Source: Bacillus sp. 491mf (GTDB taxonomy: Bacteria > Bacillota > Bacilli > Bacillales > Bacillaceae_G). From it: 64,000 nt of DNA. The notes beneath the pieces were generated by a model. It was not told the DNA's origin. It saw only the letters and a program-made list of their open reading frames with translations, and ran no database searches. The stretch is from the NCBI RefSeq assembly GCF_900112415.1, contig NZ_FOLV01000001.1:467683-531682 (forward strand), in the 5' to 3' direction. Shown here piece after piece: positions 2,537 through 38,666 of this stretch. The first letter of the stretch is position 1. Each line of letters starts with the position of its first letter. A program made the position numbers and the translations under genes.

Positions 2537-4416
2537 ATTATTTTTTATCCTCCGGTTTTTCAAATTTAAGGAATCCACCCAGACCAAATCCTTCTCCTGG
2601 TGCGATATACCCACCTGTTTGTGCTCCAAGACTCAATTTGTATCCAAATGTACCTATACCTAGCTCACCTTTAGCTATCATATCTTTATCTCCTATAATT
2701 GGAATGAATTTCGGGAAATGAAAGATATTTAACTCTACTTCGTACTTATTTGTAGTAAGCTCTGCTCCCAGTTTCATCGTATATTGATCTACGCCAGACG
2801 CGAAGTTCCCTTCGAAAAATTTTTGTGTGATTGTAATGTCCTTCATAAATACACCGATAGGAGTAGTAATTGGGATTTTTGCCTTATAGGAATTCTCTAA
2901 TGCGGAAGCTTCTATCTTTCCACCAATAATTTTACCAGCAAGTAAATCATCTTTTATAGCGCCCAAAGAAAATGGCATGTTTATATCCATCTTTCCGGAC
3001 AGAGCTTTCATCGAAAATTCATCATTTCCCCCAATACGATTCTTTGTTTCTAACACAAAGCCTTCCGCTTCTCCTCCGAGTCGAGTTCCTTCTTTCCATT
3101 TTACTGTTCCTTTAAAAGTTTCATAGCTACCTTTAGCCTGCTTCTGATTTGAATCACTCGATTTTGCATTTGCTACCGTAGAATCTAACTTATCAGCTTT
3201 CCGAGCTTTATCTTCTGCAATTTTTTGGATAGGGGCTACCCAATCCATATTTAGTTCTTGTGTACTAAATGTCCCTGATGCGGAACTGAAACCTTTCCCG
3301 CTTTGAACTTCAGCAAGTCCTCGGGCAATGCTGGCAGCAAGTTGGATCGCTGTATCATAGTTACTACTAGAAGTATAATTAAATCGATGTAGATGGTCTA
3401 GTTTTTCCTGTAGTTTTCGCTTCATAGCATCAAACATGTCTACCATAACTTTCGTGCTTGGAAGGGTACTACTGATTCCTTCAATACCTGTTTTTGTTCG
3501 GTCAATTTGTCGCATTTGCTCTTTTATTTCTTCTTCAATGACATCTGTTGTAGCTACTTGTGATTGAAAATCGTTTGGAAAGGCATTATTTTGCCGGATT
3601 AATTCTTCACACAAGTAAATGATTCCTTGTGCTAAAGGTCGGAATGTTTGTGCAAAGAATGTTTTTGCACTGTCATAAGTTTGTCCTTGCAAAACCGCAT
3701 CGAACATAAAAGCATCAATCGCGCGACACGTTTCCTTATAAGTGTGTAATCACGAAATAGGAGGGTTATCAATTTGATGACAACAACTGATTGACCGAAA
3801 GTAGGAATGAAAGCCGTCAGGTTGAGCTGAAACTACTTGTCTAATACTCCTACATGCAAGGCGTGATAGTAGTTACAAATTGTATGAAGCTAGGTGAAGT
3901 CGGCTGAACAAAACCTAAGTGAGAAATCATATGGTAATGGATAGGTCGGGATGCTACAAAATATCTATGGTGAGAATGTCCAAACGGACTGGCGAACTTG
4001 CGAATATACGGGTCTAAATGCTTAATACATTAGAAATATGTATGTCGTTAATGACGACGTTATCTACCGAAAAGTAAGAGTGAATGATATGAAATTCGGA
4101 ACATCTAACGACGAGGATGTAACGATAACAGGCTTACAGCAAGCACCTAAGGATATATGTATAGCTAAGTCAATCGGAACGTGGTAAGCGAGAAACTGTC
4201 ACCAACGCCTACTAGCAGACAGGTGTATATAAGGTTCTAACGAACCGAAATTGCTTTATTCTTGTGAAGGTGGGGACACAGTACCGACGAAACATGTAAC
4301 AAATGTGGAGGGATAGTCCCTAGTCTTGTTCTTTGAAAACTAAATTAACTAGATGTAACTCACAGGATCGAGTAAGATGATGGGACTTTTCGTAAGAAAG
4401 GGGAATTAACACATCG

Positions 4417-6228: not shown

Positions 6229-6307
6229 GAACGCCGTGTGCGGTGAAAGTCGCACGCACGGTGTTAAGCGGGGGAAAAGATGGAGATAACTTCAAAGTCT
6301 TACCTAT
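6229..6307 (+). ncRNA. Group II intron domains V and VI
   Basis: The stem GCCGTGTGCG-GTGAAAGTC-GCACGCACGGT has the shape and loop of the catalytic domain V. It is followed by AAGCGGGGGAAAAG and a hairpin (GATGGAGATAACTTC...) that holds the branch-point adenosine region of domain VI. It lies directly after the RT stop, as in mobile group II introns. Confidence 0.85.
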
Positions 6308-6410
6308 CGCAACGAATTGATGGCTTGTTCCATTCCTTGAATCGTTGCATTACACATAGCATTCATACTTTGTGTTTGAGCCTGGACCTCTCCTAGATAC
6401 ATGTTTAAAC

Positions 6411-15434: not shown

Positions 15435-15480
15435 TTATTAGACAATATGTATAATAGATTATAATAAATTGTATAGAAAA

Positions 15481-15714
15481 TCTTGGATGAAGAGAGTAAT
15501 TATTTTCAGAAGCAAAAGCGAGCTAGGGACGGTGAAAGCCTAGTGCAGAGAAAATAATGAAGCGCACTTCGGAGATGCTGCTTGAACGGTATAGTAGAGT
15601 AAGCCGGGGCTCCCTAACCTCGTTATAAACGGGAAAGTGGTTCGTAATGAACAACAAGGGTGGTACCACGGGTGTAAACTCGTCTCTTTTTTAGAAAAGA
15701 GGCGAGTTTTTTTA
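15481..15714 (+). promoter_or_regulatory. T-box riboswitch of argS, specifier CGC (Arg)
   Basis: Stem I base GAAG (15489-15492)/CTTC (15567-15570) closes a specifier loop AGAGTA opposite GAAG-CGC-A, placing the Arg codon CGC at 15563-15565. The antiterminator T-box AGGGTGGTACCACGGGT is at 15657-15673. The competing terminator AACTCGTCTC...GAGGCGAGTT plus T run is at 15677-15714. Uncharged tRNA-Arg should stabilise the antiterminator and turn argS on. A possible promoter TAGACA-17-TAATAA is at 15439-15467. Confidence 0.93.
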
Positions 15715-29169: not shown

Positions 29170-29189
29170 AACTGATAATAAAAGTATAC

Positions 29190-29452
29190 AAATCTGATGA
29201 CGAGAACGAGTAAAATGTATCACTGTTCCCCAGAGAGCCGGTGCTTTGCTGAAAGCCGGTGTTCGGTATATATTTGAAAATCATCTCCGAGGAGTCGAAC
29301 TGAACATAGTAAGTTCGAACGGTTGTCTACCGTTACAAGGAACGCGTATGATTGTACGTTGCTGAGTGCTATTGATGAACGATTGATCAATAGAAGTAGG
29401 GTGGTAGCGCGGGTAAACCCGTCCCTAATGATTAGGGACGGGTTTTTTGTGT
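29190..29452 (+). promoter_or_regulatory. T-box riboswitch of ileS, specifier ATC (Ile)
   Basis: GAGA (29202-29205)/TCTC (29284-29287) closes the specifier loop ACGAGTA opposite GAAA-ATC-A, placing the Ile codon ATC at 29280-29282. T-box AGGGTGGTAGCGCGGGT is at 29398-29414. The terminator AACCCGTCCCTAA/TTAGGGACGGGTT plus T run is at 29416-29450. Uncharged tRNA-Ile should allow read-through. Confidence 0.93.
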
Positions 29453-37038: not shown

Positions 37039-37057
37039 ATTCCGTAAATATAAAAAA

Positions 37058-37280
37058 CGATGAGCAGGAAAAGTACATCGTGAACTGATCTACAGAGAGC
37101 AATCGGTAGCTGAGAAGATTGCGGTGCAGCGTGATGGAAAGACACCTGTGAGTGTTATTTTGAACGTGAACAACTAGTAAAAGTAAACGGAACCTACCGT
37201 TATCAGGCGAAAAGTGGTCAATGTGACAATTTGGGTGGTACCGCGGTGAAATCCGTCCCTTTTATAGGGGCGGATTTTTG
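37058..37280 (+). promoter_or_regulatory. T-box riboswitch of aspS, specifier GAC (Asp)
   Basis: CAGG/CCTG closes the specifier loop AAAAGTA opposite GAAA-GAC-A, so the specifier is the Asp codon GAC at 37141-37143. The same geometry holds in the Arg and Ile T-boxes of this window. AGAGAGC and the GCAATC/GATTGC apical stem are typical of stem I. The T-box TGGGTGGTACCGCGG is at 37232-37246. The terminator AAATCCGTCCCT/AGGGGCGGATTT plus T run is at 37249-37279. Confidence 0.9.
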
Positions 37281-37306
37281 TATTCTTTGAAAGGAGGTGA
37301 GCGGCC

Positions 37307-37405
37307 GTGGATGATGATGATAACGATAATAATAAATTTATAATCATACAATTCATTATAGGAGGCGAAAAGTATGAGTCAACAGATGAAGCGGTCGCTT
37401 ATTAG
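37307..37405 (+). CDS. Putative Asp/Asn-rich leader peptide of aspS (32 aa)
   Basis: GTG 37307 follows AAAGGAGGTGA with GGAGG 9 nt upstream. It reads V-D-D-D-D-N-D-N-N-K-F-I-I-I and continues until TAG at 37403, overlapping the aspS start (37374) by 32 nt in another frame. It lies after the T-box terminator, so it is made only when the riboswitch lets transcription through. A 6-bp A/T hairpin TATAAT/ATTATA (37339-37360) abuts the aspS ribosome binding site (GGAGG 37361-37365). A ribosome slowed on the Asp/Asn codons would cover this hairpin. The function as an attenuator is inference; the ORF, its Shine-Dalgarno and the codon run are seen directly. Confidence 0.5.
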   Translation: MDDDDNDNNKFIIIQFIIGGEKYESTDEAVAY

Positions 37406-38666
37406 CGAATGTACACCGCATGAAACAGTTGTATTACAAGGATGGGTAAAAAAAATACGGCATCTAGGGAATATTAGCTTTTTATTACTTCGTGATCGAA
37501 CAGGCGTCATGCAATGCGTACTTGAACAAGAATGGGCAGGATATAAAGTAGAAGTAGAAAGTGTTGTGCAAGTGACAGGAAAAGTAATTGAGACAGATAA
37601 AACGAAACTTGGAGTAGAGTTATTAGTTGAAGATGTAAAGCTCATAAATGGTGCGGAGCCAATCCCGTTTGAAGTGAATAAAAAGAAGCTGCAGGTCGGT
37701 TTAGATCAAATGTTACATTCGCGAACGGTATCACTTCGGCATGAACAAGTGCAAGCGATTTTTACAATTAAATCAATGTTTGCACATGCTTTTAGCGAAT
37801 ATTTACTACAACACGATTTTACAAGAATTTTCACACCGAAAATTGTTTCGCAAGGAGCGGAAGGCGGAGCAAACGTATTTCAGTTTCAATATTTTGAAAA
37901 AGAAGCATATTTAGCACAATCACCACAGTTTTATAAGCAAATGATGGTTGCGGGTGGATTAGAACGTGTTTTTGAAGTGGCGCCTGTATACCGCGCTGAA
38001 CATCACAATTCATCTCGTCATTTAAACGAATACATTTCCTTAGACGTCGAACTTGCATTTATTGAAGATTTTTATGAAGTAATGCAGCTTGAAACGGATG
38101 TACTTCGGTATATGTTTGAAAAAGTAAAACAAAATTGCGTAAAGGAGTTACAGTTGCTTCAAATTGAAATTCCGGTTATTACAGACATTCCAAAATTAAC
38201 GGTAACAGAAGCGCAAACGATTTTACAAAAAGAGTATCGAAAAGAGTCCCCAATAGGAGATCTAGATTCAGAAGGAGAAAAGTTGCTTGGGAAGTATATA
38301 AAAGAAACATACGATAGTGATTTTGTCTTTATCACTCATTATCCGAAAGAAACACGTCCGATGTATACAATGCCAAATCAAGAGAATCCTTCCGTCACAG
38401 ACTCTTTTGATTTGTTGTATAAAGGATTAGAAATTACATCAGGTGCGCAGCGTATTCACAACTATGATATGTTAGTTCGCTCCTTTGAAGAAAAGGGATT
38501 ACATGTAGAAAACTTTCAATCGTATATTGATACATTCCGATATGGGTGTCCGCCGCATGGTGGGTTCGCGATTGGATTAGAACGACTTGTATATAAATTT
38601 TTAAACTTATCAAATGTTCGTGAAGCGAGTGCATTTCCGAGAGACTGTACGAGGTTAGTACCGTAA
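37374..38666 (+). CDS. aspS: Archaeal-type aspartyl-tRNA synthetase, possibly non-discriminating
   Basis: 430 residues, much shorter than the usual bacterial AspRS (about 590) because the GAD insertion domain is missing. An N-terminal OB fold (VVLQGWVKKIRHLGNISFLLLRD) is followed by the class II core with motif 2 (VFEVAPVYRAEHHNSSRHLNE) and motif 3 (GFAIGLERLVYKFLNL). This is the archaeal/eukaryotic-like AspRS2 form found as a second synthetase in some Firmicutes. AspRS2 enzymes often charge both tRNA-Asp and tRNA-Asn. Control by an Asp T-box and a possible Asp/Asn leader peptide fits. ATG 37374 has GGAGGCG upstream. Confidence 0.88.
   Translation: MSQQMKRSLISECTPHETVVLQGWVKKIRHLGNISFLLLRDRTGVMQCVLEQEWAGYKVEVESVVQVTGKVIETDKTKLGVELLVEDVKLINGAEPIPFEVNKKKLQVGLDQMLHSRTVSLRHEQVQAIFTIKSMFAHAFSEYLLQHDFTRIFTPKIVSQGAEGGANVFQFQYFEKEAYLAQSPQFYKQMMVAGGLERVFEVAPVYRAEHHNSSRHLNEYISLDVELAFIEDFYEVMQLETDVLRYMFEKVKQNCVKELQLLQIEIPVITDIPKLTVTEAQTILQKEYRKESPIGDLDSEGEKLLGKYIKETYDSDFVFITHYPKETRPMYTMPNQENPSVTDSFDLLYKGLEITSGAQRIHNYDMLVRSFEEKGLHVENFQSYIDTFRYGCPPHGGFAIGLERLVYKFLNLSNVREASAFPRDCTRLVP

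Follow-up and report, generated by a model that had tools for sequence, protein, structure and literature searches.

The region upstream of aspS2 in the window (the whole analysed stretch of DNA, 64,000 nucleotides) is probably a two-stage tRNA sensor, in which a leader open reading frame (ORF) overlapping the start of aspS2 is stacked on a T-box riboswitch; from the comparison of related loci, we assign this reading a probability of approximately 0.6. The order of elements in the window is T-box, terminator, a strong Shine-Dalgarno (SD) sequence, a GTG codon, eight Asp/Asn codons, and an ORF continuing across the SD and ATG of aspS. The T-box, the run of cognate codons, the overlap with aspS, a long-range helix, and the geometry of a ribosome placed on the leader can be read from the DNA itself. 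The features are as follows:

37051..37263, + strand: T-box riboswitch (RF00230), covariance-model match of 142.9 bits
37248..37278, + strand: intrinsic terminator of the T-box, preceding the leader ORF
37290..37300, + strand: leader SD, AAAGGAGGTGA
37296..37308, + strand: 5' arm of the long-range helix (leader SD, spacer, and start codon)
37307..37405, + strand: leader ORF of 32 aa, from GTG at 37307 to TAG at 37405, covering the aspS start
37310..37333, + strand: Asp/Asn codon run (codons 2–9), GAT GAT GAT GAT AAC GAT AAT AAT
37360..37365, + strand: aspS SD, AGGAGG, within the leader ORF
37374..38666, + strand: aspS2, archaeal-type aspartate--tRNA(Asn) ligase, 430 aa
37391..37403, + strand: 3' arm of the long-range helix (aspS nucleotides +18 to +30, codons 6–10)

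The element upstream of the leader is an ordinary Asp T-box. In the window, the covariance-model match to RF00230 is accompanied by an antiterminator motif and a terminator, and the specifier, assigned by its place in the specifier loop (loop pattern GAA...XXXA, given in the accessible text of PMC5794164), is GAC (Asp, 37141-37143). The antiterminator motif was present in 38 of 38 leader-bearing loci (described below), and the specifier was GAC, cognate to aspS, in all 38, where it was recognized in 30 loci by pattern and in 8 by eye. Compared with RF00230, the Asp T-box is the same, and the leader ORF and the helix are additional. Two further T-boxes in the window (29188-29429 and 15475-15690) precede apparent ileS and argS genes, as judged by eye, and the intervals between terminator and gene at these two sites have no visible leader ORF. 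Group II intron pieces also occur in the window (3782-3960 and 6229-6313).

The earlier note had described an SD, a GTG at 37307, and a series of Asp/Asn codons after the T-box terminator, all of which were confirmed at those positions, as was the overlap of the ORF with the aspS start in another frame (aspS ATG at 37374, leader TAG at 37405). Among the 116 combinations of SD and start codon in the window, at least 7 Asp/Asn residues in codons 2–9 were found only at GTG 37307, which accounts for three of the 116, and none of the 5469 combinations in 60 simulated Markov-1 windows had as many. On these two counts, a chance origin of the run was rejected. The possibility that the leader belongs to a known peptide family was rejected, as the window leader peptide had no NCBIfam match and the three leader peptides tried against Pfam had no match there.

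To examine the conservation of the leader, we compared 39 non-redundant loci with an archaeal-type aspS of the Bacillus/Paenibacillus type, one of them the locus in the window. These loci derive from an AspRS protein scan that gave at least 80 loci and from additional genomes; the closest AspRS to that of the window among the matches listed has 77% protein identity. An SD, a start codon, and an Asp/Asn run lie between an Asp (GAC) T-box and aspS in 38 of the 39 loci, a count that overstates independence because the loci are interrelated. An SD with a cognate codon run upstream of the gene, as expected of leader-peptide control of the rtpA type, was found in these 38. The leader was detected by script in 36 loci and by eye in 2 (L138 and L139, which the SD pattern of the script missed). 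The only locus without a leader (L096), whose AspRS is 42% identical to that of the window, had no detectable T-box either. As judged from these loci, the leader is conserved in several Bacillus- and Paenibacillus-type genera.

The rows excluded from this set were repeat fetches, a contig-split pair (L092/L117), decayed aspS2 copies (L108 and L140), and AsnRS loci (L085-L088). The leader is present in one half of the contig-split pair (L117). Both decayed copies retain the Asp leader; the T-box is kept in L108, below the Rfam cut-off, and is not recognizable by eye just upstream in L140.

A degenerate pattern of SD, start codon, and run gave 18 matches in 17 of 24 genomes picked for having aspS2, of which 16 lie at intact aspS2 genes (by coordinates), 1 at a contig-split locus, and 1 at a decayed aspS2 copy; variant leaders are present in the other 7 genomes. 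In the family of Paenibacillus mendelii (L009), the pattern occurred in 7 of 245 genomes, always at aspS2 and once at a decayed copy, and in a phylum-wide search it occurred in 1 of 329 genomes, the seed itself. The reversed-pattern controls had zero matches in the 24-genome, 245-genome, and 329-genome searches. In these searches, the leader pattern was found only at aspS2.

The other 64 aspS2 loci among the matches listed (L017-L080, mostly Clostridia) were analysed separately from the 39-locus set. A similar scan found the leader in none of them, its one flag (L047) being the aspS start itself, without an SD, and all 20 that were scanned for a T-box have one. The T-box is therefore shared between the mostly clostridial loci and those of Bacillus/Paenibacillus type, and the leader has no counterpart in the former, which suggests that the leader either was gained in the branch of Bacillus/Paenibacillus type or has been lost elsewhere. 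In three of the 64 loci (L017, L018, and L019), an apparent second antiterminator/terminator module was seen by eye 3' of the T-box, in place of the leader ORF.

The codon run is Asp-specific rather than merely acidic, because codons 2–12 of 36 leaders (n = 396) comprise 237 Asp, 78 Asn, and 18 Gly codons and only 6 Glu codons. Asp dominates codons 2–8, and Asn is common already at codon 7 and rises from codon 9. GAT and GAC interchange at most run positions, and therefore the residue, not the DNA, is conserved; a bare GAT repeat was rejected, as GAT and GAC are mixed and maintained across genera. Outside the run, the GGTGA part of the leader SD is invariant (30 rows of alignment A1, described below), and the peptide sequence 3' of the run is variable among leaders. 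The run of L099 appears to be repeat-expanded.

The aspS2 product matches the NCBIfam aspartate--tRNA(Asn) ligase PRK05159 with 607.7 bits (cut-off of 353) and scores 194.9 against the bacterial-type AspRS model, below the cut-off of that model (373.85). The ligase match fits the Asp-then-Asn order of the leader run. A His in the GWVH motif is a mark of non-discriminating AspRS. The GWV motif of aspS in the window (37440-37460) reads GWVKKIR, and that of the Paenibacillus-type loci is mostly GWVH..R; therefore, the tRNA specificity of AspRS may differ between the window-type and Paenibacillus-type clades.

The leader frame is open beyond the aspS start codon in 37 of the 38 loci, compared with 12.6 open loci expected from shuffles; a stop before the aspS start occurs only in L095, where the leader ends 14 nt before aspS. 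In the interval from the run to the aspS start, stops interrupt the other two frames in 31 and in 17 of these 38 loci. The aspS gene is found in any frame relative to the leader and is out of frame in 33 loci. The position of the leader stop is not conserved, ranging from +17 to +194 relative to the aspS start (+32 in the window, +35 in the Lederbergia-type loci, and +17 in L138 and L139), and the leader is fused to aspS in 5 loci. Because the leader frame is kept open though the aspS frame varies, the conserved property is that a ribosome completing the leader must traverse the aspS start. In the 5 in-frame loci (L005, L006, L099, L129, and L135), a run-through ribosome could yield an extended enzyme with the Asp run as an N-terminal extension.

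The earlier note had proposed that the switch is a 6-bp hairpin adjoining the GGAGG of aspS. We rejected this local hairpin (37339-37344 with 37355-37360, all A-U) on stability and consensus folding: its stretch folds at -0.7 kcal/mol (z -0.24), and it is absent from the consensus folds of both clade alignments. The fold of 37281-37405 is dominated by the long-range helix, which the earlier note had not described (z -3.2; 0 of 200 shuffles were as stable), and unguided RNAalifold folding of both clade alignments, A2 (13 loci) and A3 (17 loci), yielded no consensus structure other than this helix. The 2 clade alignments replaced a MAFFT alignment of 30 of the 38 loci (A1), which misplaces the 3' arm because the aspS N-termini differ in length; 8 near-duplicate or hard-to-align loci were left out of A2 and A3 (L005, L089, L095, L097, L099, L100, L120, and L132).

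The pairing energy of the helix beats synonymous-codon draws in 37 of the 38 loci (z -1.7 to -5.5, mean z -3.2), and therefore the helix is not explained by protein and codon constraint; in L095, there is no helix above the codon-constrained expectation (z -0.4). The register of the helix relative to a conserved Arg codon of aspS is constant within two bases in 37 of the 38 loci. Within the SD-to-start spacer, 84 of 94 positions are paired in 18 unique combinations, compared with 57.0 after permutation (0 of 10000 permutations reached the observed value), and the remaining 10 positions are mismatches found in several loci. In A2, 98.5% of the helix cells pair, compared with 33-48% in slid registers, and the cells paired and the covariation score were each reached by 1 of 500 shuffles. 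Two of the five measures were less distinctive: both-side changes, found in 3 of the 10 pairs of A2, and further pair types were each also reached by 51 of 500 shuffles. Changes on both sides occur in only 1 of 11 pairs in A3. When 3' arms were swapped between loci, the own arm was top-ranked in only 11 of the 38, probably because the SD and start parts are shared.

In modelled energies, the helix clearly shuts the leader, whose opening would cost a mean of 15.9 kcal/mol, and only doubtfully shuts aspS. The doubt concerning aspS arises because, with the 5' arm masked, the start region of aspS is only modestly cheaper to open in the model (a mean of 7.5 instead of 9.5 kcal/mol, with a gain in 31 loci and a loss in 7), and the modelled exposure of the aspS SD and start does not rise (0.50 to 0.46). 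Since the helix in these models mainly locks the leader and has a modest effect on the aspS start region, we take the helix to be the gate of the leader and the ribosome traffic over the aspS start to be the main lever.

Translation of the leader, ribosome stalling on it, and the direction of the aspS response are inferred from this comparative anatomy. In the first stage, the T-box would permit transcriptional read-through once uncharged tRNA-Asp accumulates. In the second, the overlapping leader, in which Asp codons predominate at the beginning and Asn codons follow, would monitor during translation how much charged tRNA is available. Under a shortage of Asp-tRNA, a ribosome would stall early in the leader and mask the leader SD and start (the 5' arm), so that the long-range helix stays open, the aspS SD is left uncovered, and aspS is translated. 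With ample Asp-tRNA, leader ribosomes would pass the aspS SD, the start codon, and the 3' arm and compete with aspS initiation, and behind these running ribosomes the helix would re-form and close the leader. The geometry is consistent with this scheme: for an assumed footprint of -15 to +16 from the P site, a ribosome with any Asp codon of the run in its A site is clear of the aspS SD in 38 of 38 loci, and in 35 of 38 it is clear over the whole run, partly because the run sits near the leader start. Early stalls would, with the same footprint, cover the 5' arm of the helix.

A second, translation-level sensor for aspS2 is likely, because the cognate-codon leader is conserved together with the Asp T-box, and the proposal that a leader rich in cognate codons forms a second sensing layer is supported in this respect. 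The leader would sense Asp-tRNA and perhaps Asn-tRNA. The earlier interpretation as a whole is partly supported. A further element would be a feedback: the leader ribosome-binding site is locked into early aspS codons, and translation of aspS itself would open the leader that can shut aspS, because aspS ribosomes must melt the helix. The complete scheme, in which two stacked tRNA sensors (the T-box and the leader reading Asp- and Asn-tRNA) are combined with an aspS translation that unlocks its own brake, a brake released when charged tRNA is short, is offered as a tentative model that is rather less probable than the two-stage sensor by itself. Transcription attenuation by the leader was rejected: from the leader to aspS +60, none of the 38 loci had a terminator-like site by a strict criterion, whose sensitivity is limited, a similar one having found the upstream terminator in only 19 of the 38. 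A transcriptional role of the leader is thus unlikely.

Other accounts of the leader are less likely. Its nascent acidic chain might pause or abort ribosomes through intrinsic ribosome destabilization or EttA-type pausing and tune aspS independently of charging; EttA-dependent pausing is described in the accessible text of PMC11282234, the run begins at codon 2, and acidic codons of a short upstream ORF can act in this way, as Asp2 and Glu5 of mgtQ promote mgtB translation (PMC8092293, accessible text). This is improbable given the composition of the run (237 Asp and 78 uncharged Asn against 6 Glu), and the run residue matches both the downstream enzyme and the T-box specifier; an acidic-residue effect was rejected as the whole story, Glu being nearly absent. 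It is also unlikely that translation of the leader promotes that of aspS, either because its ribosomes open the helix together with the start region of aspS or through reinitiation after nearby termination. Such coupling would agree with leaders that enter aspS and in several cases stop soon after its start, and with the ppe2 upstream ORF, which lies beside a B12 riboswitch and whose translation is essential for PPE2 expression (PMC11260477, accessible text). Against this, the stop position is unconserved, as described above, aspS possesses its own SD, and coupling alone leaves the Asp/Asn codons unexplained.

A less probable account than either is that the main role of the strong leader SD, of the helix, or of a ribosome stalled close to the processed 5' end is to guard the mRNA against decay. 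Ribosome-stabilized 5' ends are known in Bacillus, and the strong SD shortly after the T-box terminator, together with a stable helix, would suit this function, but it requires neither a cognate run nor an ORF open past the aspS start. Least probable by far is a coding function of the leader, either for an N-terminal extension of AspRS or for an acidic peptide with a function of its own: the in-frame arrangement of L005, L006, L099, L129, and L135 favours an extension, but the leader is out of frame with aspS in 33 of 38 loci, the sequence after the run varies, and the NCBIfam search (window) and the Pfam search (three leaders) gave no match. The two-stage sensor is the reading that we compare with known systems below.

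Similar to the trp, his, and ilv-leu attenuators, the leader is a short ORF with a run of cognate codons; unlike the trp/his-type attenuators, it is not followed by a terminator-like site that could be found, and it is located behind a T-box. Leader-peptide attenuators of Gram-positive bacteria are predicted, in the accessible texts, for his in the B. cereus group (PMC9413887) and for ilv-leu in S. aureus (PMC5794164), and the search for the his leaders of the B. cereus group covered operons controlled by neither a T-box nor HisR (PMC9413887, accessible text). With mgtQ and its acidic residues (PMC8092293) and with the riboswitch-adjacent metE and ppe2 upstream ORFs (PMC11260477), as presented in the accessible texts, the leader shares the design of a short ORF that would tune the next gene; it differs from them in its signal, its Asp-specific codons, and its overlap with the gene start. 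A literature search by titles and abstract openings, mostly outside subscription journals, found no Asp leader before aspS; a survey of T-boxes (PMC2494555) makes no mention of a leader peptide (term count of 0), and a T-box review (PMC7583486) does not use the word "peptide".

The comparison with rtpA (anti-TRAP, at operon) of B. subtilis rests on layout, not on sequence kinship. Chen and Yanofsky (2003/2004) reportedly described an rtpA leader with consecutive Trp codons that ends just before the SD of the gene, and a ribosome finishing this leader is said to block that SD. A leader stop in such a position is not the arrangement found here, 37 of 38 leaders running past the aspS start. According to the accessible texts, rtpA is controlled by a Trp T-box and by tRNA-dependent ribosome stalling that governs translation (PMC11255114), both the transcription and the translation levels being induced by uncharged tRNA-Trp (PMC4027176), which contradicts the belief expressed in the earlier note that no pairing of a T-box with a leader peptide had been described. 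If our reading is true, aspS2 would be the second case of control by a T-box and a leader peptide and the first on a synthetase gene found in the literature searched, with a new layout of an ORF overlapping the gene start and a long-range helix formed by the codons of the gene itself. One mRNA would have two different ways of sensing tRNA-Asp and could perhaps respond to tRNA-Asn as well, which the GAC specifier should not read, and RNA pairing would seem able to constrain which codons are used at the beginning of a synthetase gene. As in rtpA (accessible text of PMC11255114), a T-box would act on transcription, and a leader with cognate codons, on which ribosomes would stall, would act on downstream translation; unlike in rtpA, the aspS2 region involves Asp/Asn codons, a synthetase gene, a leader reaching across the gene start, and a covarying helix in which the ribosome-binding site of the leader is concealed.
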